The notes beneath the pieces were generated by a model that worked only from the letters and a program-made list of their open reading frames with translations, ran no database searches and was not told the origin of the DNA. 64,000 nucleotides of DNA from Puccinia triticina (taxonomy: Eukaryota; Basidiomycota; Pucciniomycetes; Pucciniales; Pucciniaceae). The position numbers were made by a program, and so were the translations under genes. The stretch lies in contig NC_070571.1 of assembly GCF_026914185.1 (NCBI RefSeq), positions 868,001 through 932,000 of the forward strand. Reading direction: 5' to 3'. The first letter of the stretch is position 1. Each line of letters starts with the position of its first letter. This document shows positions 3,218 through 39,162 of this stretch, in pieces.

Positions 3218-5865
3218 ATGCCCGAATCGCAACTTGCCAGCAGCAGCGATAACTCAATAGGAGCGAATGCCAGCACAAGCCCCGCAGCTGTCTCCATCTC
3301 GCTCAATGCTGATTTCTCCGCTCGATCGCGCGATTCAATGGCAAGTACCTCTATCTATGTTGTTGAAGCGATCTGTTCTTGATGAATAACTGATTGGTCA
3401 TTGTTCGTCCACTCCATTTGGATCAATGAATCTTTTTATAGGACAATCGATCGTGTGTTGAGTCTTGGATCAACAACCGTGAGCTCTGGCGCGACCAACT
3501 TCAGCAGAAAGTGCAGACTGATCTGATTAAACCCCGTTCCTGCCTGTGTTAGCGATAGCTCCCCCAGAATCAACCAATCAATCCAGCTCGGTGGATATTG
3601 TCCGCTTGGATCAGACAGACCAATCTACCTCGGTCAGTTCATTAATTCCAACTCTTTGCTACCTGAATCAGCAATTACTCATCGCCACTCCTTTCAATTT
3701 TATGAATAGATATCAATGGGTCAGGATGCTCAAAATGCTGTTCAAGATCGGCCTGAGGGTAGTGAGTCCTGCCAAGTAGTAAACAAACAACATACCAGTC
3801 ATTTTCTGACCAATTTTTTTTGGTTATGTATATGCTGGCTCAACAGCATCAACGGAACAAAGTTGGATTGAAAAATACATTGCCTGCAAGGATCATCGCC
3901 AATTGATCCATCATCCCCTGCGATACACCTGGGCAACCAGACAGACAATTTGGAACGAGAAGGTTTCCGTGAAGCCACCATTCCCCCGTGTTGGCTCGGC
4001 CACCACCACTCACTTTTCTCTCATGGCTCCACCTACAATGTTTTCCTTTGGTGGTTCTTTCAATGGTTGTTTGCAGCAAGATCTCTTCTCTTTTTCTCCT
4101 GATCCTCAATGTCCCGAATTGCACCTCACAGTCTCTGTTCTCAACACACGCGGCTCAAACCCGGCACCTCGCTCTGATGCCGTTTTGGCTGCAAACGATG
4201 GCCAGCTTTTTCTTTGGGGTGGCCAGCTCTCCTCAGAGGGTGTCGCCAAGCAAGACACGAATCTCTATGTACTTAAGCTGTCGACACATTCCTGGACTCG
4301 CTCAGAAACGTCGGGCCCCTCTCCCCATGCTGTGGCTGGCTCAACTGCTACACTATTCAAGGATTTTCTTTACCTCTTCGCTGGTGAAAACCTTGATGGC
4401 TCCATCAATGGCGACCTTTGGCGAATAGGTGTGGATTGGGATACATGTAAGCCATCATCTGTCTATAATCATGCGCCTGGTACCCAGTAGAGTTGATTTT
4501 TGCAATTTGATTTATATGTACAACAACCCAGCTCCATCACCTCTTTACTGGCATCGTTACTCGTTTGCACAGGACCTGAAACTACCTCCTGCTCGTACCA
4601 GGCACTCAGCAGTACAGTACAGGAAATCCTGGATCATCTTTGGCGGCACAAGCAGTATGGATCTACTCAACGATCTCTGGGAGTACTCTCTTGAAAATCA
4701 AGAGTGGAAGCCTATCTCTGTAGAGACTGTAAAATGAAGATGTGTCTGGTGAGAGTCGAACTCACGACCTCAGCTATGCTGAGACACATACTAGAGTGCT
4801 GCCTTTACCAACTAGGCTACAGACGCTTGTGGCTGCCAGCTGGGTGGTTGGTTGGTAGTGCTCATGGGTCAATCCGACAGCCCTCCATACTGTGGTGATA
4901 CATCATGGTAGCAGACTAACAGACAACTCAACACCCCCCCTTGCTACATGATGGGAAGTGGGGATTGACCCCAAGAGAGAGTGGGAATGAGACCCAGGAA
5001 AGATGATCAGTGTAGGGATTGAACCCGTGATCTAGATGTAGGCTTATAGGGGTTTGTGTGGTCTTACAAGTAAGCATTCACAAATTCATCAAGTCTCTAT
5101 TGTAAGCGAGTAGCGCTCAGGTAGCTCTGGGCTCATAACCTGTAGAGACTGTAAAATGAAGATGTGTCTGGTGAGAGTCAAACTCACGACCTCAGCTATG
5201 CTGAGACACATACTAGAGTGCTGCCTTTACCAACTAGGCTACAGAAGCTTGTGGCTGCCAGCTGGGTGGTTGGTTGGTAGTGCTCATGGGTCAATCCGAC
5301 AGCCCTCCATACTGTGGTGATACATCATGGTAGCAGACTAACAGACAGCTCAACAATCTCTTGCTCTGGTTTAATCCCAGCTCCTCGCAAACTGCATTTG
5401 GCAACCCGAATTGAAGACTACATGTATGTTCTTGGTGGTACTGGCAATGATGGTGCCATACTCCACGACATGTATGCTCTAAACCTAAAATGTTCGTGTT
5501 TATTTCCTTGCTTCTCTCTCCAATTGATCTTTTTTTATGACTCACTTCCAACAAATTTTTCAGCTCATGTTTGGTATGCTTTGCCGGTCGGTGGCCTTGA
5601 GCAAATCATCAATTGTGGCCAGCTCTTAGCTTCTTGGAACGAATCCATCTACGTTTGGGGTGGTCAGGCAACGAATCTGGGAAAGCTCAGCAATACTTCA
5701 CTTTACCACACTCTCAACATCCCCGTGAATCCTACCTCCGCCAGTCAACCTCTCTCGCCAATATTCTCCTTGCTTGCAAAAGAGGAATATCCAACCAATC
5801 CATTTGTGTATGTCCTTTCTTCCCTTCGTGCATTTCCTTCCTCCCTTGTCAGTGGTATTGCGTAG
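3218..5865 (+). CDS. Kelch-repeat (galactose-oxidase-like beta-propeller) protein, multi-exon
   Basis: Seen: kelch blades recur as hydrophobic-GG motifs: MFSFGGSFNG, LFLWGGQ, WIIFGGTSSMDLLNDLWEYS, MYVLGGTGNDG and IYVWGGQ. Proposed exons, all phase-compatible: 3218-3340, 3442-3478, 3568-3632, 3710-3758, 3847-4446, 4532 to about 4720, 5381-5491 and 5564 to about 5865. The start ATG at 3218 gives a polar, Ser-rich N-terminus without a signal peptide. The first intron (3341-3441) keeps the frame only with a GC donor (GCAAGT). The exon 6 to exon 7 junction holds duplicated repeats (4718-5355) and its splice phase could not be closed. After about 5805 the sequence keeps kelch-like fragments in shifted frames (SAVGETIIF, SVGQTIIL) up to 6034, so the C-terminus is decayed or more exons exist. 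Known of the family: kelch propellers are protein-interaction scaffolds, and cell-polarity proteins of the Tea1/Kel1 type carry them. The specific partner is unknown, and it may be a pseudogene. Confidence 0.6.
4742..4826 (-). tRNA. tRNA-like (Leu/Ser type II shape), probably a tRNA-derived repeat
   Basis: On the minus strand: an acceptor stem pairing 6 of 7, an A-box-like TAGCCTAGTTGG, a D-stem GCCT/AGGC, a long variable arm CTCAGC-ATA-GCTGAG, a perfect T-arm GTGAG-TTCGACT-CTCAC, and 85 nt in total. The anticodon arm does not form a regular 5-bp stem with a 7-nt loop, so no anticodon can be assigned. It is duplicated at 5164-5248. More likely a SINE-type pol III promoter unit than a working tRNA gene. 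Confidence 0.45.
5164..5248 (-). tRNA. tRNA-like unit, second copy
   Basis: The copy of 4742-4826 inside the second direct repeat. It carries changes in the T-loop (TTTGACT instead of TTCGACT on the sense strand) and in the acceptor stem. These changes weaken the B-box and argue that this copy is a non-functional repeat. Confidence 0.4.
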
Positions 5866-22841: not shown

Positions 22842-23172
22842 TGTTAGGATAGTCTACGCTTAGTCTCTCTTTTTTTCTTTTCTGTGCTACACACATGTTT
22901 CTTTCATTTCACACACATTTCACCTAATGTATGTAGTGTACCTGAGACTGCGGGCGTGGAAGGCTCCTTTCCTCATCCTTCCACACTTCACGCTCACTCA
23001 CCTCACCTCGTGCCCGTTGCTCTCAGGTACAGTAGTTTCTTTCTCTCACTTATCATCTTTTCCTTTGTTTCTCTTTTCTCTTCTGCTTGTGTGTAATGAA
23101 TAATCCTTCCACACTTCACGCTCACTCACCTCACCTCGTGCCCGTTGCTCTCAGGCCTAGTTCATCTTATCA
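22842..23172 (+). repeat. 5' LTR of Copia A with an internal 52-bp duplication
   Basis: It carries an exact 52-bp direct repeat (22975-23026 and 23103-23154), each copy ending GTTGCTCTCAG. The spacer between them starts GTACAG and is pyrimidine-rich, so the arrangement looks like an intron with identical exon ends. Confidence 0.85.
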
Positions 23173-23192: not shown

Positions 23193-24258
23193 CTCCAGCT
23201 CCGCAATTGACCAGGCACGTTAAATATCGGTCTTCTTTGAGTGACATTCTACCAGTGGACTACTATAAAGGATCAAAAGAATCTCGTCGCCTTGCTCTTT
23301 GAAATGGCCAACAATAAACAACCCTCAACCTCGGGCAAAGCCCCCGCATCCTCCGTCGATGCAACTGTGCACATCAACACTAACTCATCGGCAGTTCTCT
23401 CTCAGAAATCAGCTGCCGCTCGTCTCCCCATTCTCACGGAACCCGGCCCAGATTCCAACTTCCCGGACTGGGACCTCGTGATGAACTCCTACTCCGACAC
23501 CGTCAACATGGACTATGTCATCGAAAAGCCGATGCCCGCGCAACCGCCAGCCTCATGGGCGGCAGACAACAAAACTATTTGCACCATCCTTACACAAACG
23601 ATCATAGGCTCGAACTTACTCACTGTCCAAACCTACAAGAAGAACGCGTATGGCATGTGGCAGGCGCTTGTTCGCTCTCACCTAGACTCGTCGACAGGTG
23701 GCAGAGTCTACTGGCTCCGCAAGCTCCTTCTCGCAAAAAATGGAAGGCGATGACCTTCTCTCGCATCTCAACACTATGGCGAAGGCATACGATCGCCTCA
23801 ACGCTCTCATCACCCCGGATAAACCCCTCACTCCATCCGTGTACACGCCGCTGCGCTCCTCAGTTTGATCCCGGACGACTGGATGGCGTGCGTCTCCCAT
23901 CTGATGAATCAAGATGGAGTGCAGTCCGAGACAATCGTCTTGGCTCTGAAAAACAAACACACCCGGCGACACTCTCAAGCCGAGGTGGTTCCCTCTGCCT
24001 CATCGGCTAAAGCCAGACCTCGATCTGACAAACGGCCAGGCGATCGCAATCGGAAACCCCTTCACTGCGATTTCTGCAACGCAGACGGTCATGATCTCAA
24101 CCGCTGCAACAACACCCGCAGGATCCTGGCTGAACACAAAGCCAATCAAAAGCCTTGCGTGTCTCAAAAGGACGACGACACAATTAAAGGTCGGTTAAAT
24201 CAACCAGCGGCTCAAGCAGGCCGAACCTCGGCAGCCACTTTGGGACGATCTGCCCATT

Positions 24259-27155
24259 CACTACCAAGATGGATGAATTTGCGATGTCGTATATTGATCA
24301 ATACAGCATATATTGATCAATTTATATTGATCAATTTTTTTTTTTTTTTTATTCCTGTTGATACCTTTGTCTGTGTTCCATGTCTCCTTAATACTCTTCT
24401 ATAATCTCTCTCCTTCCCCCTGTGTTAGCTTCAAGCCACAGGAATCTTTTTTTTTTTGCCTGATAAAATTCATGAATTTCTACATACACCATTCAATTCT
24501 TCCTGAAAATGCAAGTTTTAGGATTAATCCAGGGTAGCTGAGGGGTCTCAAATTTTTTTCTTTTTTTTACATCAACAATTGATGTTATCAGAAGTCTCCA
24601 AATCTATTTTTTTGCAAAAAAGGAAAAGCATTGACCCCTGACCTCTCTCATGATACCATCCTGCACTCATTCTTAACTTGGTTGGTTGAACTTCCTGAAG
24701 ATATTGCATATCATACTTGAATTACTACATGCATAGAAGGCCTGTTTGAAATTAGTTTACCAGTTTAGCATGTTTTTGTCACGTTCTTTTTTTTATCTAC
24801 TTTTGTTATCAACCACAGATTGATGAGGAATATTTCCTCAGGAAATTTCATTGGGAAATTTTTCTGCATATAAACCCAGAAATATTATATTTGGGGTCAC
24901 ATCCATTACGCAGCAGCTATAATTTGATCAGTTGCCAAATAACACTACTTTGGTCGTTTCTTGGTGTTTCTGCAACTATATCTCATCCCAGCCTGGGAAT
25001 TTTTCCAAAATATTGGTACCAAAATGTTGCCAAGCACACAAAGTTTCATAATGTACCTTTGCTGACCACAAAACCCCCAAATGTAGCACCTACAGTCTGA
25101 TCAGTTTCCAAATATCACTACTTTGGTAGCTTCTTGGTTTTTCTGCCACTATATCTCATCCCAGCGTGGGATTCGTCTGTCATATTGTAACAAAAATATT
25201 TACAAGCCTCCAAAGTTTCATTATGTACCTTTACTGACCACAAAACCCCCAAGTTTAGCGGCTAAAGTCTGATCAGTTTCCAAATATCACTACTTTGGTA
25301 GTTTCTGGGTGTTTCTGTTGCTATATCTCATCCCAGCGTGGGAAGTCTTCTGCCATATGGTTACCAAAATGTTTAAAAGCGGCCAAAGTTTCATTATGTA
25401 CCTTTGCTCACCACAAAAACCCCCAATGTAGAAGCTACAGTCTGATCAGTTTCCAAATATCACTACTTTGGTAGCTTCTTGGTTTTTCTGCCGCTATATC
25501 CCATCCCAGCGTGGGTATTCTTCTGTCATATTGTAACAAAAATATTTAAAAGCCCCCAAAGTTTCATTACGTACCTTTGCTGACCACAAAACCCCCAAAT
25601 GTAGCAGCTACAGTCTGATCAGTTTCCAAATATCACTACTTTGGCAGTTTCTGGGTGTTTCTGCCACTATATCTCATCCCAGCGTGGGAATTCTTCTGCC
25701 GTATGGTTACCAAAATGTTTACAAGCGGCGAAATCTCCATTATGTACCTTTACTGACCACAAAACCCCCAAATGTAGCAGCTACAGTCTGATCAGTTTCC
25801 AAATATCACTACTTTGGCAGTTTCTGGGTGTTTCTGCCACTATATCTCATCCCAGCGTGGGAATTCTTCTGCCATATGGTTACCCAAATGTTTACAAGCC
25901 CCCACAGTTCCATTACGTTCCTTTACTGACCACAAAACCCCCACATGTAGCAGGTACAGTCTGATCAGTTTCCTAATATCACTACTTTGGTGGTTTTGGG
26001 GTGTTTCTGCCACTATATCTCATCCCAGCGTGGGAATTCTTCTGCCAGGGTGTTACCAAAATGTTTACGAGCGGCGAAATCTCCATTATGTACCTTTACT
26101 GACCACAAAACCCCCAAATGTAGCAGCTACAGTCCGATCAGTTTCAAAATATCACTACTTTGGTAGTTTCTGGGTGTTTCTGCACATAATGAAACTTTTG
26201 AGGCTTGTAAATATTTTTGTTACAATATGACAGAAGAATTCCAACGCTGGGATGAGATATAGTGGCAGAAAAACAAAGAAGCTACCAAAGTAGTGATATT
26301 TGGAAACTGATCAGACTGTAGGTGCTACATTTGGGGGTTTTGTGGTCAGCAAAGGTAAATTATGAAACTTTGTGTGCTTGTAAACATTTTGGTACCAATA
26401 TTTTGGAAGAATTACCAGGCTGGGATGAGATATAGTCGCAGAAACACCAAGAAACAACCAAAGTAGTGCTATTTGGGAACTGATCAGATTATAGCTGCTG
26501 CATAAGGGATGTGACCCCAAATATAATATTTCTGGGTTTTATATGCAGAAAAATTTCCCAATGAAATTTTCTGAGGAAATATTCCTCATCAATCTATGGT
26601 TGATAACAAAAGTAGATAAAAAAAGGAACCTGACAAAAATATGCTAAACCATGGTAAACTAATTTCAAAAAGGCCTTTTATGCATGTAGTACTCCAAGTA
26701 TGATATGCAATATCTTCAGGAAGTTCAATCAAACAAGTTAAGAATGAGTGCAGGATGGTATCATGAGAGAGGTCAGGGGTAAATGTTTTTCCTTTTTTGA
26801 AAAAAAGTAGATTTGGAGACTTCTGATAACATCAATTGTTGATGTAAAAAAAGAAGAAAAATTGAGACCCCTCAGCTACCCTGGATTAATCCTAAAACTT
26901 GCATTTTCAGGAAGAATTGAATGGTGTATGTAGAAATTCATGAATCTTATCAGGCAAAAAAAAAAAATATTCCTGTGGCTTGAAGCCAACACAGGGGGAA
27001 GGAGGGAGATTATAGAAGAGTATTAAGGAGACATTGAACACAGACAAAGGTATCAACAGGAATAAAAACATAAAAACAAATGATCAATATAAATTGATCA
27101 ATATACGCTATATTGATCAATATACGACATCACAAATTCATCCATCTTGGTAGTG
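24259..27155. mobile_element. Non-autonomous palindromic CACTA-like element 2
   Basis: Starts CACTACCAAGATGGATGAA and ends CTTGGTAGTG, with the 3-bp duplication ATT on both sides (24256-24258 and 27156-27158). 2897 bp. It has the same subterminal TGATCAATAT tracts, the same mirrored inner blocks and the same 173-bp array as element 1, here eight forward and two inverted units. No transposase. Excising it rejoins the Copia A gag and protease frame (LGRSAH to DSHEEDNQ), which supports the boundaries. Confidence 0.8.
24905..26490. repeat. 173-bp tandem array, 8 direct then 2 inverted units
   Basis: The TCTGATCAGTTTCC-type marker lies at 24923, 25096, 25268, 25441, 25614, 25787, 25960 and 26133, a strict 172-173-bp spacing. 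Orientation switches near 26183 and two complementary units follow. Unit sequence matches the array in element 1. Confidence 0.9.
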
Positions 27156-30100
27156 ATTCCCATGAAGAGGACAATCAATCGGACTATTCAGGCTCCGAGC
27201 TAGAGGTCACTGCAGGCAATGCTGTTGCTTCTGTCTCCGCCAGCTTCGACTCGACCGATTCCGGAGACGCCAACATAGACTCCGGGTGCTCCCTTTCCAT
27301 GACCCCGAATACCACCGCTCTCACCAGCCTTCAAAGCGACCATACTCCTGTTTGTCTTGCCGACCACTCCGTGGTCGAAGCCACTCACAAAGGACTTGCA
27401 AGGCTCCCCATCAAAGGCGGCCCCACTCTAAAAACGCTAGTGGTTCCCTCACTCCATGAACCTCTCCTATCAGTGGCAGGCATTTGCGATGTGGGCTTCA
27501 CGGTTGTCTTCAGCAAATCTTCCTGCGACTTCTACAAGTTCTCCAATCTCAAACTCAAAGGAGAAATAGCGGGAAAAGGGTACAGGAGAGGAAACCTCTT
27601 CTATCTTCCCTCTGAGCCTGTGAGCTTGTCTTCCACTTATACCTACTCCCCCAATCCCGTTGACACCTCTCTCTTCGGCTACCATCTTTGTTTCTCACAC
27701 ATTGGACTCAAACCGCTGAAATCAGTACTAAAAAAGAACCGCATTATTCCTTCAGTTATGAACGAGATCACGGTTCAAAAGTGTCCAACCTGTGTTCAAG
27801 CAAAGATGCACCGGAAATCCTTCAAATCTCGATCATCCTACCGTTTGACGACTCCTGGCAAACTAGTCCACTCTGACGTTGGCTCTTAGGAGGTGGTCTC
27901 GCGCAAAGGTTATAAATATTTCATCACCTTCATAGATAATTGTTCCAAGTTTCTCTCTGTTTATCCAATGAAATTCAAAAGTGATTCGTTTGCATGCTTC
28001 AAACTTTTTCAAGTTTTCTTTGAGAGAGACGGAAAGAACAAGATTCTTTCACTCAGAACTGACAACGGAGGAGAATACATCTCAAAAGATTTTGAGAACT
28101 ATCTTGCCACCGCTGGAATTAAGCATGAACCCGGCCCACCTCATTCCCCGGAACTAAACGGTGTAGCGGAACGTACAAACAGGACAATCAGCAATCTTGT
28201 GGCTCGTCTTTAATCCATGCAAGACTCCCCAAATCCTTTTGGGTTGATGCACTTCAACACTCCCTTTACTCCCACAACTTGATCCCCTGCAACACGCCCC
28301 AAGGGTTTCTTTCTCCCACCACGATCCTTGGACGCAAAGAAGTCGATTTCAATTCTCTGCATCCCTCTGGCTGCCTAGCTTGGTACAAAGTCCCAAAGGC
28401 GGAAAGGAAGAAACTTGATCTCAAGGGTCGCGCATCTATACTTCTCTCATACCTATCAGACGGCAACGGTTTTTGTCTCTTCAATCTAGAAAAACATTCA
28501 GTCATCAAGTCAAGAGATGTCATCTTTGACGACTCCTCCTTTCTGTATGGCACCACACTCCGTTCCTCCCTGGAACCACTCCCGGTGGAGATCTCCTGGC
28601 CCCAACCCAGCACCTTGTCACCCACGCTTCCGACATTATTGCAACAGTCCTCTCAGGAGACACTCCCACTACATCAACCAGCTGTCCCAGACACTCCATC
28701 CGCTCCCAAGCATCATTCTCCTGCAAGACCTCTCAAAAAGATTTCAACACCGGATCTCCCCCCTCTAGACGTACCTCTTTGTCCTCGCTTTGATCGCCGC
28801 CTGACCGCATCCATTCATGCACCAGGCAACGCTCCTCGTGAACCCATCTCTATCAGCTCTGACTTGGATACCTCTCCAGTTGAGCATCTATCCCCGGACA
28901 TTTCCATCATTTCCCTTCCTCCCCTTTTAACTATACCTGATCGCTCTTCTTTGCACAGCTCTCCATCAACCACATCTCCCAAATCAGATGCCCAAGTCCC
29001 CCACACCAATCCATCTCCTCCCTTATCTCCAAAACCCCCGTCCCCACCTACCAAACCACCTTTGCCATCTCCTCGCCCCCCATCTCCACTCCCTAGGCAA
29101 CGCTCCGGACGCGAACGCAAGGCTCCGGATCGCTATGGCACATGGTCAAAAAATGCCACAGTGAAAAATGATATCAACACGCCAAAAACCTGGCGCCAAC
29201 TTCTAAAATCACCCAACAAACACTGATGGCTCAAGGCCGCCGAAGACGAATTTGCCACCCTTCTTGGCATGCAAACTTGGCGTCTTGTTCCCAGACCAGC
29301 CAAACGGAAAATTATCAAATCTAAGTGGGTATTCAAAGTCAAGCGCCGACCTGATCAAAGCATCCAGAAACTCAAGGCTTGTCTTGTCGCCATGGGTTAC
29401 ACTCAAGTACACGGCCTTGATTACGACAAAGTCTTCTCTCCAACACTTTGCCTTGAAACACTTTGCCTTATATTTAGCCTCCTAGCATGCCAAAACTGGA
29501 AAGGCCGTCAGGTAGATTTCAAGACTGCCTTCCTCAATGGTGACTTGGATAAACCTATCTATATGGAACAACCCCCTGGTTTTGAAGACTCTCAACACCC
29601 AGACTGGGTCTGTGAAGTGAATTGATCACTCTACAGACTCAAGCAATCCCCACGACAATGGAACATCAAGCTGCACAAGGCCCTTCTAGATCTTGGTCTC
29701 TCCAACTCCAAATATGATCCGACTCTCTACTTCAAGGTCGTTGGAGGCTCACTTGTTGGCGCTCTAACCACTCATGTAGATGACCTGGCTATTGTTGGCG
29801 AGCCCTCTTTTGTTGGCTCTCTGATCTCCTCCGTTGGCAAACACTTTGAAATTGGGGCAGACGAAGATTTACATCACTTTCTCTCCATCAGGATCACCCG
29901 CAATCTTCCAACACTTCACGTGTTCCTCAATCAGTCGCACTACATTACCAAAATCTGTCAACGCTTTCTTGACGGCAAACATGTATCAGTACCAACTCCA
30001 ACCGACTGCAACTTCAAAAACTTAAGGCGTAAAACACAATCAGATCCTCCATCGCCAGGTCCATACAATCAACTTATTGGCTCCCTAGTGTGGGTGTCAC

Positions 30101-31061
30101 AATGTACCCAACCGGACATCTCATTTGCGGTTAACCGCCTCTCACAGCACCTGAAAGACCCCTTGTCCGCTCATTGGTTTGCCGGCCTTCGTATCCTAAA
30201 CTATTTGGCTTCAACCAAGGACCTGAAACTTCGCCTGGGGGGTCAACTCGAATGCTCCGGCTTCTCCGACTCTGACTGGGCTGAGGATTGTGATGACCGC
30301 CGGTCCACCTCCGCCTACACTTACCGCATTGGGGATGGCGCCATCTCCTGGAAGTCCAGAAAACAGGCAACAGTTTCCTTATCCAGCACCGAAGCGGAAT
30401 ACAAAGCTCTCTCCAACTCTTGTAAGGAGGGCCTTTGGATCTGACATCTCCTCAGCGAACTCCATCTTCGACCAGACACAGCAATTCCCCTTCACATTGA
30501 CAATGAAGGAACCGAAGCCTTAGCAAAAAATCCTGAACACCACGCAAGAACCAAACATATCCACGCGCGCTACCACTTCATCAGAGAATGTCTTCAAGAA
30601 GGAGAAATTTCTCTTCTCCATGTCTCAACCAAAGACATGTTGGCTGACATGTTGACCAAACCACTTCCCCGTGTCTCTCTGGAAAAACACCGTCAGATGT
30701 TTGGAATTGTTAAATAACGCTCCTATCCCTAATCCTCTGCTTACCTTCTCCATATCCCCTCCACTCATTTTCTCTCCTCTCCCACTCTACTGAAGACATA
30801 TCCCTTTCTTCTTATCCACAAATCTTATTTCCTTCCTTCAGTTTATCTCTCTGCTTTTCTTTCTCTCTATCTTTTTTTTTTTGTTTCACATGTATGCAGC
30901 AAGGGGGGGTGTTAAGATAGTCTAGGCTTAGTCTCTCTTTTTTTCTTTTCTGTGCTACACACATGTTTCTTTCATTTCACACACATTTCACCTGATGTAT
31001 GTAGTGTACCTGAGACCGCGGGCGTGGAAGGCTCCTTTCCTCATCCTTCCACACTTCACGC

Positions 31062-32101
31062 TGTGGTGGCCCCTCTCGTGGCCAGCTATTCAGGAGCATC
31101 ACCGCCGCCAGCAGGATCATCAAGACTCAAGTTTATTTTCACTTCCCAAGACTCAATTTCCACGCTGGGGTGGACAGAAATCCGTCATTGGGTCCCGCGA
31201 CTCAATGAAAGTTGATTAGGTAATCCGACATTGGGTCCCGCGACTCAATGAAAGTTGATTAGGTAATCCGACATTGGGTCTTGCGACTCAATGAAAGTTA
31301 TGGTGCAGTCCCGACTCCCCAGGCCTCAAGATCTCTTCTCATCACATTTCCACCTTCAACTGGCTCCCCTATCTCTCCTTTTCCTTCTGTCCATTTTCCC
31401 ATCTCCCTTCCTTCTCAGTTCCCCATGCCTCTTCAGCTTTCTTGGTCCTAACACAGCGCCTGATGTGGGTTTATTTCCTTGTTTGTTTCTGATTTCTTTC
31501 TCTTCTGTTTGTTCTGCCTGTCTTGAGTGTTTTCTGTTTTCTCTTTCCTCTTTTTATTTTCCTCCCTCTGGTTCTTTTCTTCCTGACTCATCACGCTGTG
31601 TTTTCCTTAATTTTCCCTTGTGTTGTTTCCTTTCTTCTTTTTTATCTTGTTTGTTGTGAGTGTGTGCGCGTGTAGCGCGCGGAGGATGTGATGAAATGTA
31701 TGTGACATGTCGCCCGGAGTCCAAGTTCAGCTCGAACTTGGATGATGGGTGGCCATGGCATTCTGATCCCCGGAATACGGACCATCACTGAGCTTATAGA
31801 TCCTATCTTCAGAGTTTCAACTTACGGGCTCCGCCCGCCGATCATCCTTCATCAGAGTTTTCCGGATCTTTTTCCTTCCTCTTCCTTAAGATCACATCTC
31901 CCTTCCCCTCAAACAAAACAACCGCCGCCGAGGATCCAAACCCCCGGCGAACTTCTCAAAACCACCCAAAACCCAATAGCTATCCCTGATCCCCCCCATT
32001 TTCAGCGCTCATCACCACGGACCACCCAGCCACGAGGGCAGCCTAAACAGCACCCATCCCCTCACACGACTGCCTCCGCTTGTACGGACAGGAGTCTCTC
32101 A
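31062..32101 (+). repeat. 5' LTR of the gag-only element
   Basis: TGTGGTGGCCCC...GGAGTCTCTCA. It includes three 43-bp tandem units from 31186, each with the foldable CATTGGGTCCCGCGACTCAA and followed by TTAGGTAATCC. The many ORFs across it repeat in the 3' LTR and are not genes. Confidence 0.9.
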
Positions 32102-32103
32102 TT

Positions 32104-32158
32104 TGGTCCCCCGAGCCGGGATCGAACCAGCGACCTCAAGATTTACAGTCTCGCACTG
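32104..32158 (+). other. Extended primer-binding site: 55-nt complement of mature tRNA-Tyr(GUA)
   Basis: Begins TGGTCCCCCGAGCCGG two bases after the LTR. Its complement reads, from the 3' end: CCA, acceptor strand, a perfect T-arm (GCTGG-TTCGATC-CCGGC), a 5-nt variable loop, then an anticodon arm CGAGA-CTGTAAA-TCTTG with GTA at canonical positions 34-36. The inclusion of CCA and the absence of an intron mean a mature tRNA was the source. Ordinary PBSs are 8-18 nt. Confidence 0.85.
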
Positions 32159-32249
32159 TGGTTTTGAGGCGCTCCGAGCGGTTCTAATTCTATCCTTTCC
32201 TCTCCCATCTTCCGCGGAGTCTTCCGGAATCGAGGCTGATCTTCGTTTT

Positions 32250-32340
32250 GAACATTCCGCTCCGCAACCTTGTCTATTCCGCTCCTCAACTTTGTCTATT
32301 CCGCTCCGGAACCTTGTCTATCCCCCCTCCGCAATCGTCG
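32250..32340 (+). repeat. 22-bp tandem repeat in the leader
   Basis: Three to four copies of TTCCGCTCCGCAACCTTGTCTA with small changes. Non-coding leader between PBS and gag. Confidence 0.75.
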
Positions 32341-32890
32341 AGGTCCGATTTTCCGCTGTTTGTTCCGCTTGAAGCGGAGTCGTCGAGTCCTCGTTTCATT
32401 GGATCAAGTTGTTTTGGGATCGGTCCGAGATCGCTTCAAGCAACACACGTCGAGATTCAAGAGTCTTTCTTTCTGCAATCTCTCATTCTCGACCGGCGTC
32501 CCCTCCTCCGCCTTTTATCTCGAGTTGTGTTCCGCATCCTTCTTTCGACCAACCCAGAACTCGGCTGATCGACTAGAAGAATCTCCAGCCCCTCTCCTTT
32601 TCTTGTCTTCAGATCTACGGTCCCCACCTCCCTCTTCCCATTTCTAGAAGCTTGACCGGACGTCTATATCGCCCGGCCATCTCCCTCCCTTCTCCCTTCG
32701 TCACCAGGAGCTCAGCTGAGCCTCCTAATCGTCTCAGCAGGCGGACCGAGCTCTCTCTTGTCACAGGCAGCTCGTACCAGTATCCTCAGCTCGATTCAGG
32801 ACCCGACGGCAATCACGACCCGCTCAAGTGTCCTTCTTCCATTCTTTTTTTTTCTCTCTGGTGTCATAAGTGGGGCACAGGAGGATCAAA

Positions 32891-33001
32891 GTAAGTCCCC
32901 TCCAGTCGTGCACCTCCGAAGGCTACTACTATTGTCATTGTCGCAACATCACATTCGCCACATCTGTGAGCCTCGAGCACTGTTCCGATCTCTCTTTGCA
33001 G
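32891..33001 (+). other. Intron-like block 1 of 3 in the gag-only element
   Basis: 111 nt from GTAAGTCCCCTCC to CTCTTTGCAG, located in the leader just before the gag ATG. Consensus donor and acceptor. Homologous to the blocks at 34287 and 35495 (shared GTAAGT, CTCC, TGCACC, CGCCAC, TGTGAGC landmarks). Confidence 0.6.
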
Positions 33002-33026
33002 TGTCCGCCTTCCCCAGCTTTTCAGG

Positions 33027-35498
33027 ATGGCAAATGTCGAAGTGGCGGGAGCTCCGCCGAAGTCCACGATGGTCAGAATCGCGCCACGGAATGTTTGGTG
33101 CTTTGATGAATCTGATGGCGAAGGTTTTCTCAAAGCCTATGAAGCTGCGGCAAAGTCAAGTGGCGCCTCCGAGTGTGATAAGGAAGCTGCTCCGTGGTCA
33201 CTTCGAGATCTCAAAGATTTACTCCTTTGGTGGTCTGCGAAAGAAGACATTTCCGCCGCACGGGACTACCCAATCTTTTCTCAAGCCTTCAATTCGATCG
33301 TTTCGTATTTATATCGTGAAAATCCGGCCCACGTGGAAAGAATCCCAGCGCTATGCTCTCAAGCCTTTTCTCTGGTTTCTCGACGATCACTAGCGGCCAG
33401 GCTAGCGTCTCCGGTGGAAAAAGACAAGACCTGGGTTTTCCATTGCAGTGCGGGAGAAGTTATTGACGATGTTCCGTTGTCTTTTGTGTCCTCCAAACCA
33501 ATTGTGGAAGTGGGTCAATGTAATCTTGAGCATTCAAAGCAATCAACACTAGAAGCATCGCAGTCCATCAGATCACTCAATTCTGTCTCCAACACTTCAG
33601 AAAGAACGGAGTCGGAGCTAAGCCGTCTAGAGGAATTTCAAGCATTGGAGAGGAGGTTGAAGGAAATGATCTCCGTCACCGCTCTCAATCACACCGTCCG
33701 GCCCCTGCTCATCTGTTACTATTGCCATTGCAACGGGCATGGATTCGGACACTGTCCTGATCTCCAGCGGGACAAGATGGATGCCCTTGTCAAACAGAAG
33801 GGAAAGCTTTTCTTCCTTCCCAGCGGCACTCCCGTTCCCTTCGATCCTAGTCGGCCGATCCGCAGTGTGGTCATCTCCGCACAATTCAACTCCGCAGCGC
33901 TTCAGTCACAGAGGGGTCAATGGGGTCCCTCTGAGAAGAAAGGCTCCACACCCCGGACAAATCGAAGGCCACAGATTCACTCGTTGCCCTCCATCTTCTC
34001 CGCCCCCGGCGTTGCCCGGTCAGCCGTCTCACCTCCGCCCACTTCCCCGGTGTATCATTGTTTTTCTAGCCGCGGAACTGCAAGTACCGCCCATTTGGAT
34101 TCAAGCACTCCGCCATGTTCTGTCGGTTCTGTACAGGCGGTGGATAGAGTTCTTAGGAAGATCCTTGATCTGATGGTTCCGGGGTTTTCCACTTCCGCTT
34201 TGGCCAACAACCACCTTCCCAAGAGTCATACCACCAAGAGGAAAAAGGCAAGAAAAGTGATTCCGCGGAGGCATAGAGGAGCGAAAGTAAGTTCTCTCCA
34301 ATGTGCACCTCCGGAGCGTGATGCTACCATCTCCATCAAAACCCTATCTCGTGCCACACTCGTGAGCAATGGACAACCTTCCACCCTTGTTTCTCCAGGT
34401 GGAACAGACCCGACTCACTGCGATAACCTCCGCAAAGAGGTTAAACTATCCCCACCAATCTTTGATTCCCTGCTCCGCCCAGTGGCGGAGTCTTTGATCC
34501 CGCCTTCTCGCCTCCGAAACAAGGTTAAACTACACCCCCGTCCTTCTTTGATTCCGATTCCCAATCTCTGTTCCGGTCGCCGACTCCGCCAGGAGGCGGA
34601 GCATCTGATTCCTCCTCCTACCCTCCGAGACGAGGTAAAACTATGTTCCACCCCCGATCTCAGCTCTCAGCCCCGCCAGATGGCGGACCCATTGATCCCA
34701 TCTTCCGCCCTCCGAGACGAGGTTAAACTATGTTCCAGCCCTTCCCCGACTCCAACCGCCGATCTTTGTTCTATTCGCCAACTCCGCCGGGCGGCGGAGC
34801 AGTTGATTCCGCCCTTCAGCCTCCTAGACGAGGTTGAACTAGCTTCTCAATCCGCATCCAATCTTATTTCCGAGTCAATCCATTCTCTGAATCAAAAAAC
34901 CGTTCCAGACCATCTCCGCACTTCTCCTACCCTCCGAGACAAGGTTAAACTATGTTCCACCTCCTATCCGACTGCTGCTTCCAACCTCCGCTCTAGTCTT
35001 CAGCCCCGCCAGATGGCGGAGCATGCAATTCCGATCTCCGATCTCTGTTCTAGTAGCCAGCTCCGCCAGGCGGCGGAGCATTTGATTCCACCTTCTAGCC
35101 TCCAAGAGAAGGATCAACCAACCCCTTTTCTATCCAGCATTTCGGAGCCGCCCTGCGCGCTCAATGATACCGTTGCATCCCCACCATTTGAGCCCCTCTA
35201 CTTGACAACCTCAGAATCCTCTTCAATCTCGACTTCACCTCGAACCCCCGCTATGGCTCCCAGTTTTGCTTCACCGCTCTTCCCAACGCGCTCCCATCTT
35301 TCCATCCAGATCCCAGTTCTGCCTCAATCCTCCAACTCAACTCCATCCGAGCTTTCTGATCTGACCCCTAGCAACTCTCAATCATCCCCCTCATCTCCGA
35401 TCCACAAGTGGGGTGTACTGGGCTCTTTCCATTTGGTTGGTGGAGAAGTCGTGGTTTGTCGTGGTTATTCCCGTGGGGGCATTACTGACCAGAAGTAA
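33027..35498 (+). CDS. Retrotransposon Gag with CCHC knuckle and repetitive C-terminus
   Basis: 823 aa from ATG 33027 (MANVEVAGAPPKS), uninterrupted. The N-terminal ~200 residues are helical and capsid-like. A CCHC zinc knuckle CYYCHCNGHGFGHC (C-x2-C-x4-H-x4-C) sits at about residues 230-243. The C-terminal half is Ser/Pro-rich with about six imperfect repeats of the type RQAAEHLIPPSxLRDEVKLCS (about residues 470-695), whose DNA carries palindromes such as CTCCGCCAGGCGGCGGAG. An intron-like block (34287-34398) lies inside the frame; splicing it out would shift the frame to a stop soon after, so either the unspliced form is used or two products exist. The ORF ends at TAAGT of a third intron-like block. 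No pol domain is present. A functional structural Gag in trans is likely. Confidence 0.7.
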   Translation: MANVEVAGAPPKSTMVRIAPRNVWCFDESDGEGFLKAYEAAAKSSGASECDKEAAPWSLRDLKDLLLWWSAKEDISAARDYPIFSQAFNSIVSYLYRENPAHVERIPALCSQAFSLVSRRSLAARLASPVEKDKTWVFHCSAGEVIDDVPLSFVSSKPIVEVGQCNLEHSKQSTLEASQSIRSLNSVSNTSERTESELSRLEEFQALERRLKEMISVTALNHTVRPLLICYYCHCNGHGFGHCPDLQRDKMDALVKQKGKLFFLPSGTPVPFDPSRPIRSVVISAQFNSAALQSQRGQWGPSEKKGSTPRTNRRPQIHSLPSIFSAPGVARSAVSPPPTSPVYHCFSSRGTASTAHLDSSTPPCSVGSVQAVDRVLRKILDLMVPGFSTSALANNHLPKSHTTKRKKARKVIPRRHRGAKVSSLQCAPPERDATISIKTLSRATLVSNGQPSTLVSPGGTDPTHCDNLRKEVKLSPPIFDSLLRPVAESLIPPSRLRNKVKLHPRPSLIPIPNLCSGRRLRQEAEHLIPPPTLRDEVKLCSTPDLSSQPRQMADPLIPSSALRDEVKLCSSPSPTPTADLCSIRQLRRAAEQLIPPFSLLDEVELASQSASNLISESIHSLNQKTVPDHLRTSPTLRDKVKLCSTSYPTAASNLRSSLQPRQMAEHAIPISDLCSSSQLRQAAEHLIPPSSLQEKDQPTPFLSSISEPPCALNDTVASPPFEPLYLTTSESSSISTSPRTPAMAPSFASPLFPTRSHLSIQIPVLPQSSNSTPSELSDLTPSNSQSSPSSPIHKWGVLGSFHLVGGEVVVCRGYSRGGITDQK
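34287..34398 (+). other. Intron-like block 2 of 3
   Basis: 112 nt from GTAAGTTCTCTCC to GTTTCTCCAG, starting exactly at a codon boundary of the gag frame. It is open in frame (translated VSSLQCAPPERDA...), so retention is possible. Confidence 0.55.
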
Positions 35499-35605
35499 GT
35501 CCCCCTCCTTAGTATGCACCGTAGGGCTTCTCTACACTGTTTGTAAGCATTACGTCGCCACGCTGTGAGCCGCCTTCGGGATCTCTGTTTGGGTTTTCTT
35601 TCCAG
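35495..35605 (+). other. Intron-like block 3 of 3
   Basis: 111 nt from GTAAGTCCCCCTCC to TTCTTTCCAG. Its donor overlaps the gag stop codon: the TAA is part of GTAAGT, so splicing would remove the stop. Confidence 0.55.
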
Positions 35606-35676
35606 GTTTCCGTCTCTTTCTTTGGCCGCATGGAACGTTGAAGGAGTCTGGGGACAGACTCCAAGTGGTGGGTGGA

Positions 35677-36716
35677 TGTGGTGGCCCCTCTCGTGGCCAG
35701 CTATTCAGGAGCATCACCGCCGCCAGCAGGATCATCAAGACTCAAGTTTATTTTCACTTCCCAAGACTCAATTTCCACGCTGGGGTGGACAGAAATCCGT
35801 CATTGGGTCCCGCGACTCAATGAAAGTTGATTAGGTAATCCGACATTGGGTCCCGCGACTCAATGAAAGTTGATTAGGTAATCCGACATTGGGTCTTGCG
35901 ACTCAATGAAAGTTATGGTGCAGTCCCGACTCCCCAGGCCTCAAGATCTCTTCTCATCACATTTCCACCTTCAACTGGCTCCCCTATCTCTCCTTTTCCT
36001 TCTGTCCATTTTCCCATCTCCCTTCCTTCTCAGTTCCCCATGCCTCTTCAGCTTTCTTGGTCCTAACACAGCGCCTGATGTGGGTTTATTTCCTTGTTTG
36101 TTTCTGATTTCTTTCTCTTCTGTTTGTTCTGCCTGTCTTGAGTGTTTTCTGTTTTCTCTTTCCTCTTTTTATTTTCCTCCCTCTGGTTCTTTTCTTCCTG
36201 ACTCATCACGCTGTGTTTTCCTTAATTTTCCCTTGTGTTGTTTCCTTTCTTCTTTTTTATCTTGTTTGTTGTGAGTGTGTGCGCGTGTAGCGCGCGGAGG
36301 ATGTGATGAAATGTATGTGACATGTCGCCCGGAGTCCAAGTTCAGCTCGAACTTGGATGATGGGTGGCCATGGCATTCTGATCCCCGGAATACGGACCAT
36401 CACTGAGCTTATAGATCCTATCTTCAGAGTTTCAACTTACGGGCTCCGCCCGCCGATCATCCTTCATCAGAGTTTTCCGGATCTTTTTCCTTCCTCTTCC
36501 TTAAGATCACATCTCCTTTCCCCTCAAACAAAACAACCGCCGCTGAGGATCCAAACCCCCGGCGAACTTCTCAAAACCACCCAAAACCCAATAGCTATCC
36601 CTGATCCCCCCCATTTTCAGCGCTCATCACCACGGACCACCCAGCCACGAGGGCAGCCTAAACAGCACCCATCCCCTCACACGACTGCCTCCGCTTGTAC
36701 GGACAGGAGTCTCTCA
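35677..36716 (+). repeat. 3' LTR of the gag-only element
   Basis: 1040 bp, the same length as the 5' LTR, with two differences noticed (a C/T near 36512 and a C/T near 36545). Confidence 0.9.
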
Positions 36717-36898
36717 ACGCTCACTCACCTCACCTTGTGCCCGTTGCTCTCAGGTACAGTAGTTTCTTTCTCTCACTTATCATCTTTTCTATGTTTCTCT
36801 TTTCTCTTCTGCTTGTGTGTAATGAATAATCCTTCCACACTTCACGCTCACTCACCTCACCTCGTGCCTGTTGCTCTCAGGCCTAGTTCATCTTATCA

Positions 36899-39162
36899 TG
36901 TCGTCACGCTTGACCTTCTCCTTCAGAACCCAGGCGCGGCAGCCGAAAGGTTTGAAAAACTTGATGTTCGGGTGCAGCTTCAGGAAGAGTGTTATCGGTG
37001 CTGAGCGCGATTTTGAGAGTGAGGGTAGCGAGTTGGTTATGGCTGCAGCGGTGATTACCGCCTCGCCCCACCACTTGGCAGCCAGATTGGCCTGCAGCAG
37101 AACACAGCGTGTCATCTCAATGATTGTCCTGTTCGCGCGTTCCGCGACACCGTTATGCTGAGGGGTGTAGGGTGGAGAGATGTTATGTTGTATACCCTCT
37201 TGTTGAAGAATTTTGCCAAGGGCCTTGTTGCAGAACTCCCCTCCACCATCTGTCACACTCTTCTTGACTTGATTTCCCGTCTGCTTTTCAAATTTTGTTT
37301 TGAAGTCTATGATCGAGGAAACCGCATCTGATTTTTCTTTGAGAAGGCTGATGTGAATGTAGCCGGTATGCTGATCAACAAGCGTAAGAAAGTAGCGAAA
37401 TCCGCTGTTTGTGGCTGGCCAAATAGGGCCAACTAAGTCGCCATGCACAACGTCAAGAGACTGCTCAGTGGGGGAGAAATGACCCTTGAATGGTAGTTTT
37501 ACCATCTTTCCTTGCATACAGGCTGAGCAGGCAGACCTTTCCCTCGTCATGTTTTGATTGCCGATGATTGCTCTGATCCTTGCTGCGCTGGCATGGCCGA
37601 ATCTCTGGTGCCATGTCATGAAAGTGTTGGTTGGGGCAGTCACAACGGTGCTGAACAAAGCTTGCGTTGGTGGGATAACGCCTTCAATGCAAAATAGGTT
37701 TTCTTTGGTGTTGATTAGAAGACTATGTTCATCGTTCAGCTTGACTATCATTCTTCCATCCTTGTTGGTGATTTCAGCTTTTTCCTTGATGAGATGTGCA
37801 AATGAGACGAGATTGGTGGACAAGTTTGGGACATATGTTGATATAGTATATTAGCATTTCCTTATGTAGTATGCTTCTAACCTATACACCCACAACTTAG
37901 CCTATATTATACATGTATAAGTCTAGTTGTTCTCTTTACTGTTATCCTTCCTAACTGAATGATGATTTTACTTTGACTTACTGTGCTCGGACTTTGTCCT
38001 CAACACCTTGTCAAATCTCTCTTAGTCTTGTGTCACCCCAGTTACCCTCAACAACATAGAGGGCATTGCGCAGGATGATTGTTGGCCTGTTATTGAAATT
38101 TAGCCTCACAGTGCCTTGTTGGGTTCCAATCATTTCCGGATTTTTGGTTCCGGACCCTGTAACAATTGGAATGTTCACGTTGAATGAATCAGTGAAGTAA
38201 CCAATTGAGTTGAACATGTGCTGGCTTGCGCCAGAGTCGAGAATGACCGAGTCCTTTTTGACTTTCTGCAATTAGGTTTGGTATGCAAAGCTTTGCGTTG
38301 ATCCAGATCCAGCAGTGGTGGTGTGCATATTGGTGGCCTTTCTCTTTGTTGGACAAAGTTCTGGGTGTAGCGTCCAACATAGCTCTTCTGGATGCGCAGC
38401 GTCCAGATTGTGTCTTCCTTGCTTGCATGCGGCAAACGGTCTCTTTCTTGGGTTTTTTGTGGTTGAGAGTGCCGTGCCTGCCGGTGGATCGGATCCGGGC
38501 CCATTTGAGATCATCTTCAGCTTTGTTACTTGTTTGTGATTTGCAATCAATCTGAGCTTGTCCAAGAGTAGAAACGGGTTCGCCAACGTTTCCATGTCAC
38601 CAAGAATTTGCTCCATGACCATGGGTCTTCTTTTGGTGATGGTTTCTATGATGCTGACACTTATGAGCTTGTTCATAACATTTAGCCCGATTGTGCTGAT
38701 TTCTGCTAGCGCGGCTTTGACTTTGATGATGTACTTCAGCAAATCGTTGTTGTATGAGATTCTCAGATATTGTGACCATACTCTGTATATTCTGTAAATC
38801 GTGGCAGTGGCGTAGTTGTTCTTTAATCACATCCATATCTTGTGGGGGTCGCGACCGCACATGCTGCTGAGACTAGTCAAGATTTTGGGAATGATCTTGG
38901 AGTTTAGGTTAAGCCAAGCTTTGAGTTTTTGTTCCTTGATCTTCTTGTCTTTTGATTCCGAAATGTCTTTCTTGACTACAGACCAGAGTTTCTTGTATTC
39001 CATATATGCACTCATTGTGTTTTGCCAATTCACATAATTACTGCCGTTGAAGGTGGGAATCACTATGATGTCTTTTTCTTCTTTGGTTTTCAAAATGACT
39101 GCCGCTCCGGAGTTTGGAGCGTTGGCTGGAAGAAGTGATCCTTGGCGAGTAGCGGATGGCAT
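36899..39162 (-). pseudogene. Copia B gag, protease and integrase, broken
   Basis: Gag N-terminus at 39162 (MPSATRQGSLL... KEEKDIIVIPTFNGSNY), then a frameshift near 38825. A non-canonical Cys/His stretch (CKQGRHNLDAAHPEELCWTL) and the protease DSGASQHMFNS (about 38230) follow, with a stop between them near 38272. The insertion of a solo LTR (37836-38053) splits NALYV from PNLSTNLVS. The integrase has the HHCC region (WHQRFGHAS, CSACMQGK) and the catalytic D-D-E (VHGDLVGP, VTDGGGEF, NGVAERANR). It stops at 36899, where Copia A is inserted. Confidence 0.9.
37836..38053. mobile_element. 218-bp solo LTR
   Basis: Inverted termini TGTTGA...TCAACA, 5-bp duplication ACATA at 37831-37835 and 38054-38058. 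Removing it plus one duplication restores the Copia B reading NALYVPNLSTNLVS. No internal region, so it arose by LTR-LTR recombination. Confidence 0.85.

Follow-up and report, generated by a model that had tools for sequence, protein, structure and literature searches.

The window analysed here is a 64,000-nt stretch of the Puccinia triticina genome (assembly GCF_026914185.1, contig NC_070571.1, positions 868,001 to 932,000 of the forward strand). It carries a long terminal repeat (LTR) retrotransposon whose primer-binding site (PBS) extends far beyond the classical 18 nt. Positions 32104-32153 of the window are the exact complement of positions 76-27 of the mature tRNA-Tyr(GUA), with the CCA included and the intron absent. 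The same 50-nt block is found at nearly all of the related sites read in the genome, is shared across highly diverged families and has a sharp end between tRNA positions 27 and 26. We consider it somewhat probable that, in these elements, synthesis of plus-strand strong-stop DNA continues on the primer beyond A58 as far as C27 and so supplies the block anew.

The preliminary description of this locus, made from the window sequence, had presented the PBS as a 55-nt copy of tRNA-Tyr. Alignment to the genome's own tRNA-Tyr genes shows a somewhat shorter match. The 50 nt opposite positions 76-27 are exact, position 32154 is also complementary to G26, and the match is broken at 32155, giving 51 contiguous nt (positions 76-26); only positions 25 and 22 mismatch, and 53 of the 55 nt match. 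The true extent of the block is 50 nt plus one base opposite G26 that is variable between copies. The canonical numbering with GTA at 34-36 was borne out by the alignment, and in this mature tRNA of 76 nt canonical and linear numbering agree. Four tRNA-Tyr genes were identified by an exact pattern search, which diverged tRNA-Tyr genes would escape. Their exons are identical, their introns of 14-26 nt lie after A37, and the CCA is not encoded. Because the CCA is present in the block, the intron is absent and the gene exons are identical, the template was a mature tRNA, as the preliminary description had proposed. ARAGORN, run with bacterial settings, reported no tRNA in loci L051 and L052. Its call for L053 and L054 was a tRNA-His, probably through misreading of the tRNA-Tyr gene. 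These calls were set aside.

The complement of the tRNA is contiguous with the PBS and continues beyond position 58, as in primer over-extension. The PBS does not correspond to self-priming of the Tf1 type, in which it holds no tRNA complement, nor to half-tRNA priming, as it opens with TGG, the complement of CCA, and not at the anticodon loop. A tRNA pseudogene, a short interspersed nuclear element (SINE) or a chance match beside the LTR has a negligible probability as the source of the block. Rfam gives an antisense tRNA match that would agree with such an origin, but this match and another to snoU31b score under the family cut-offs and were rejected. Against such an origin, the block includes the CCA, lacks the intron, is antisense and starts 2 nt after the LTR end in the copies read. 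No matches were found in controls or shuffles; for example, the first 20 nt of the block, with at most 3 mismatches allowed, match the window just this once, and 100 shuffles gave no match. This origin is refuted because the block sits at a fixed place after the LTR.

A search was performed for the block throughout the genome (122.8 Mb, 18 contigs). Taken together with the TT spacer, the classical PBS word has 315 exact copies (147 + 168) and the word for tRNA positions 48-27 has 311 (158 + 153), with 0 for either control. Of the 315 sites, 86 were read, selected solely by the classical PBS; contigs C1-C3 contributed all of their 82 sites and C4 contributed 4. A further set of 40 loci (40 of 425 candidates scored) had been chosen for likeness to the window, hence the main counts rest on the 86 sites. 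A site was taken to carry the block when it showed at most 5 differences over 50 nt. This comparison of PBS length across relatives, suggested in the preliminary description, shows that the block reaches C27 in 83 of the 86 sites. The other three diverge into other sequence early, after 36 (L112), 34 (L082) and 22 nt (L092), and none of the 86 sites breaks at the classical border 59/58. These three broken sites were excluded from base, fold and identity counts (n = 83), and L069 and L070, copies from a tandem segment, were also left out of the pairwise-identity and G-U counts (n = 81). Families were assigned by eye; regular expressions left 25 of the 83 sites without a family letter.

Two observations concern the arrangement of individual copies. 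The PBS regions of L068, L069 and L070 (C1:4162602, 4239976 and 4317351) are identical and recur every 77.37 kb, which points either to a segment triplicated in tandem or to an effect of the assembly. In the pairs L001/L003 and L006/L007, the internal starts are 99% identical and the LTRs just 85% and 80.5%, as if LTRs had been exchanged at or near the PBS.

The block is constant apart from decay, while nearly all of the flanking sequence has changed. Mean pairwise identity is 97.6% in the region opposite positions 58-27, compared with 60% for the LTR end that precedes the block, 57% over the 32 nt that follow it and 28% farther downstream. Fifty-four of the 81 sites are perfect across the 50 nt. 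Opposite positions 58-27, 4 non-CpG changes were counted in 2158 cells, versus 34 changes in 498 CpG cells, a CpG bias that is the expected pattern of decay after insertion.

The inner end of the block is sharp. Opposite C27, G is found in all 83 sites, whereas opposite G26 61 sites have C, 11 have T, 7 have G and 4 have A, and opposite C25 the tRNA fits in 1 of 83. A short junction begins here, and its base and its length (0-2 nt) vary among copies. In family A (40 loci), the sequence between CTCG and a constant TGTGG reads CAC, GAC, AAC, TAC, CTAC, GTAC, ACAC, TCAC, CCAC, AC or GC. Family A includes 24 pairs with a downstream likeness of 98% or more; 33% of them show a junction difference, versus 5% for random 3-nt windows, although these pairs are not independent. 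In the same 24 pairs, the 13 nt of a downstream hairpin arm (arm 2, see below) differ in 0, and 42% have at least one difference within 47 nt of the PBS. The junction is thus a hot spot and evolves more quickly than the sequence around it, yet it is mostly inherited within close clusters: among seven family-A clusters at least 97% alike, it has changed in three and not in four. The idea that the junction is rewritten in each replication cycle was dropped because of these four unchanged clusters.

Deep copying of the primer tRNA would account for such an end. Plus-strand strong-stop DNA would extend across the T loop and anticodon arm of the primer and halt at C27, before G26. Its end would anneal to the complementary 50 nt that form the 3' terminus of the minus strand, making the long copy usable, and the block would be renewed from the mature tRNA during replication. 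The 27/26 border would be the next hold-up expected for a reverse transcriptase already past A58. According to the available part of one study, G26 is often N2,N2-dimethylated (m2,2G26) by Trm1 in tRNAs with a variable loop of at least 5 bases (PMC4697793); the variable loop of the tRNA-Tyr here has 5 nt (AGGTC). The same source describes misincorporation at G26 in 27 of 36 G26 tRNAs of fission yeast, lost in a trm1 deletion, with no misincorporation at N6-isopentenyladenosine 37 (i6A37) and some at A58 (PMC4697793). Matches to the Trm1 family and to the GCD14/Trm61 family are present in the P. triticina genome. We take tRNA-Tyr to carry both 1-methyladenosine 58 (m1A58) and m2,2G26, as in yeast.

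The preliminary description had proposed that reverse transcriptase read deep into its primer and that the copy was then fixed. The first part stands as the best explanation, in view of the C27/G26 end, its presence in 83 of 86 sites and the divergence of the families. A single fixed copy is too small an event, as the block is common to hundreds of sites and has apparently been re-supplied. The preliminary description also raised stronger priming or packaging as a possible effect of longer pairing; half of the extension is predicted to be taken up by a hairpin in the element RNA.

Several points weigh against deep copying. A58 is expected to be m1A and GCD14/Trm61-family matches exist, yet neither a stop nor misincorporation is visible there, T standing opposite A58 in 83 of 83 sites. 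The modification m1A58 halts retroviral enzymes, as described in the available text (PMC13191261). C opposite G26, the commonest base there, is equally expected from faithful copying, and the junction stays unchanged in most of the close clusters. Arm 2 of family A is as constant as the PBS among the closest pairs, so selection alone can hold a block. For yeast Ty1 and Ty3, the part of the source available states that the primer sequence is not inherited (PMC5371799).

The same end point would arise if the primer were a 3' tRNA fragment starting at C27 and copying off its 5' end added untemplated bases. We regard this as unlikely. The 0-2 additional junction bases in family A are consistent with it, and rust Copia elements have been inferred to prime at tRNA anticodon loops, tRNA-Tyr included, in the available text (PMC10886601), but their priming site is the anticodon loop and not the 26/27 border.

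The block is also predicted to form a hairpin with the sequence downstream of the junction. Arm 1 (32134-32149) lies within the tRNA copy, arm 2 (32155-32169) is like the sense tRNA anticodon arm and pairs with arm 1 partly through G-U pairs, and GGTT at 32180-32183 would close the structure by pairing with AACC at 32125-32128. The fold of the window copy has a z-score of -3.7, and over the 83 sites the extension forms a mean of 20.2 pairs with the downstream 50 nt, versus 12.9 when the downstream sequence is shuffled. In the family representatives that were folded, the post-junction sequence is family-specific, yet in each case pairing is predicted between it and that half of the extension which corresponds to the anticodon arm. 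The predicted partners are ACTGTGGTTTTGAGG in family A and CGAGAC with GGTC, TTGAGGCGC or CTTGAGG in other families. The predicted hairpin has good support in family A and modest support in the other families, and within family A arm 2 is as constant as the tRNA copy. In the RNA, the downstream fold may occupy the anticodon-arm half of the block and leave the T-arm and acceptor half for the primer.

Such pairing raises the question of whether the block and junction are merely part of a conserved RNA hairpin with a variable loop, and in families B-F the variable part does lie, by eye, at the hairpin tip. In spite of the fold of the window copy and the excess of pairs over shuffled sequence, we consider this explanation very improbable. 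The loop of family A consists of CTCG plus the junction, and CTCG is fixed apart from CpG decay while the following base varies. Positions 76-56 lie outside the hairpin and are just as intact. The mean z-score over the 83 sites is -1.6, with 37% of sites under -2 and some at about 0 or above.

Selection for tRNA annealing is the main rival and a serious one, although on balance we judge it rather unlikely. The block would have been copied once from the tRNA and then kept as an extended or bipartite PBS that contacts the T and anticodon arms and, in certain families, also the D arm. Complements of the D arm argue for this. An exact 16-nt complement of D-arm positions 25-10 follows the hairpin in L088 and L099, about 40 nt further on, and a changed complement stands at the same offset in L073, L102, L080 and L072, with scores in L080 and L072 that are reached by 3% of shuffles. 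The exact D-arm complement with its flanks occurs at 3 places in the genome. Extended primer contacts that include the D arm are known for Ty3, according to the available part of the source (PMC5371799). Full annealing of the unmodified RNAs was calculated at -131 kcal/mol, versus -28 and -36 kcal/mol for the separate folds, and arm 2 of family A demonstrates that selection can keep such a block constant. Other evidence stands against it. Among the changes in the extension (81 sites), 16 retain G-U-compatible pairing with the tRNA and 18 break pairing, so that G-U-compatible changes are not favoured. The extension is intact across all families seen, whereas the D-arm block beyond G26 is exact in just 2 of 86 sites, and the anticodon-arm half is predicted to be folded onto arm 2 in the RNA. 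The rarity of exact D-arm complements beyond G26 fits a renewal of positions 76-27 only; the D-arm block also favours tRNA pairing as a function.

Deep copying may be extended to a bolder reading, which we put forward tentatively and with some doubt. The whole Ty3/gypsy clade would have shifted its plus-strand stop from m1A58 to m2,2G26, and two thirds of the tRNA would be inherited by way of reverse transcription. A downstream arm that mimics the tRNA would have evolved; it would mask the additional segment in the RNA and give way once the primer or the DNA strand displaces it.

The window element is assigned to a clade of tRNA-Tyr-primed Ty3/gypsy retrotransposons. The Ty3/gypsy pol order of reverse transcriptase, RNase H and integrase was identified in three of the six relatives' frames scanned (L041, L044 and L046). 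The L049 frame has reverse transcriptase and RNase H, and the L047 and L042 frames gave no match. Among solved structures, Ty3 Gag-Pol matches the L044 frame best, and the best named matches of its reverse transcriptase are from Puccinia coronata (91%) and P. striiformis (73%). In partial alignments with the L044 reference, gag-frame identity is 31-58% for 18 of the 20 loci compared and 65-68% for the other two. The gag-like frame of the window element shares 28% identity with the L044 gag frame over 362 aa.

The window element occupies 31062-36716, and its features lie on the plus strand. It shows the hallmarks of an LTR retrotransposon, namely a near-identical LTR pair, TG...CA ends, a target duplication and a PBS after the 5' LTR. 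The 5' LTR (31062-32101) and the 3' LTR (35677-36716) are both 1040 bp long with TG...CA ends, and 2 differences separate them. The target duplication ACGC flanks the element at 31058-31061 and 36717-36720 (5 bp on the left, ACGCT, when the initial T of the LTR is included), and a paralogous empty target site lies at 22990-22993. A TT spacer (32102-32103) separates the 5' LTR from the classical 18-nt PBS (32104-32121), the complement of tRNA-Tyr 76-59. The extension (32122-32153) is the complement of positions 58-27, covering the T loop, T stem, variable loop and anticodon arm, and is followed by the junction base at 32154. An 842-aa open frame, gag-like and bearing a CCHC-like knuckle, spans 32970-35498, and a purine-rich stretch ahead of the 3' LTR (35665-35676) is the probable polypurine tract. 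The gag-like frame had no match in a Pfam scan. The window element is probably non-autonomous, because this is the single open frame inside it and no pol was found there.

Other repeats were noted in the window. Six diverged 69-nt repeats lie inside the gag-like frame (34475-35131), and a Copia-like open frame with GAG-pre-integrase and integrase core domains adjoins the element on the minus strand (36888-37850). A large inverted repeat at 24258-27156 has arms of about 1.3 kb with 173-bp tandem repeats within. On the minus strand, 4718-5355 holds two 216-bp direct repeats that are 99% alike, lie 422 bp apart and each contain a tRNA-like sequence (ARAGORN). The inside of this repeat pair opens with GGTTATGAGCCCAGAGC, which resembles what we take to be the complement of the initiator-tRNA anticodon loop. 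The pair is probably a Helenus-type terminal-repeat retrotransposon in miniature (TRIM).

A general motif, which assumes a standard T loop, was used to look for extended PBSs that correspond to other tRNAs. The motif occurs at 2 and 19 places, versus 1 and 1 in the controls, and among the 19 there are words repeated five and three times. For the three-times-repeated word, no tRNA gene with matching acceptor ends was found in the genome. The five-times-repeated word, 24 nt long and with a layout like that of a T-loop-extended PBS, is a candidate (C2:2193939, C4:5780166, C4:7358765, C16:3934022 and C17:1581113).

The standard teaching is that m1A58 causes the stop by which the PBS is defined. 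A different stop, 32 bases farther into the tRNA, seems to be recorded at hundreds of genomic sites here, and the yeast relatives of this group reportedly never inherit the primer. If this is true, genome sequence alone would reveal where reverse transcriptase stops on a tRNA. It would raise the question of how the enzyme passes A58 and show how a PBS can grow, and the extended block would serve to mark the clade. Searches of an open-access library, judged mostly by titles and the beginnings of abstracts, turned up no account of a PBS of 50 nt. Plant PBSs are described as mainly of the 3'-end, half-tRNA or self-priming types in the available text (PMC6317226).

The statement of the preliminary description that known PBSs are short is subject to the caveat that short primer over-extension sequences occur in lentiviruses and spumaviruses. 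These sequences, though shorter, come nearest to the block among known systems. In the available account of these viruses, retroviral plus-strand strong-stop DNA normally ends ahead of m1A58, and an over-run product is usable just to pseudouridine 55 (psi55) or U54, aided by the over-extension sequence (PMC13191261). In both cases the tRNA complement directly follows the PBS; in these viruses it makes an over-long strong-stop DNA usable, as it would here. Their usable stops, m1A58, psi55 and 5-methyluridine 54 (m5U54), however, all lie in the T loop as far as that account goes (PMC13191261), whereas the complement here extends to C27, 32 nt past the classical PBS.

The PBSs of yeast Ty1 and Ty3 are described as bipartite (PMC5371799). 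They resemble the PBS here in the Ty3/gypsy machinery of the autonomous relatives, the T-arm contacts and, possibly, the D-arm complement of some families. They differ in having separate segments and in not passing on the primer sequence, and the contacts listed in the available part of the source do not include the anticodon arm (PMC5371799). Half-tRNA Copia elements and Helenus TRIMs of rusts, probably from the same host order, share the intronless tRNA-Tyr and the complementarity of the anticodon region to the PBS, but they are described there as Copia-linked and primed at the anticodon loop (PMC10886601). In contrast, the PBS here starts at the CCA and its autonomous relatives are Ty3/gypsy elements. 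The proposed mechanism resembles retroviral PBS renewal in that the tRNA would supply the PBS sequence through plus-strand strong-stop DNA, but here the supplied segment would be 50 nt long instead of 18 and would end at the border between the anticodon arm and the D arm.
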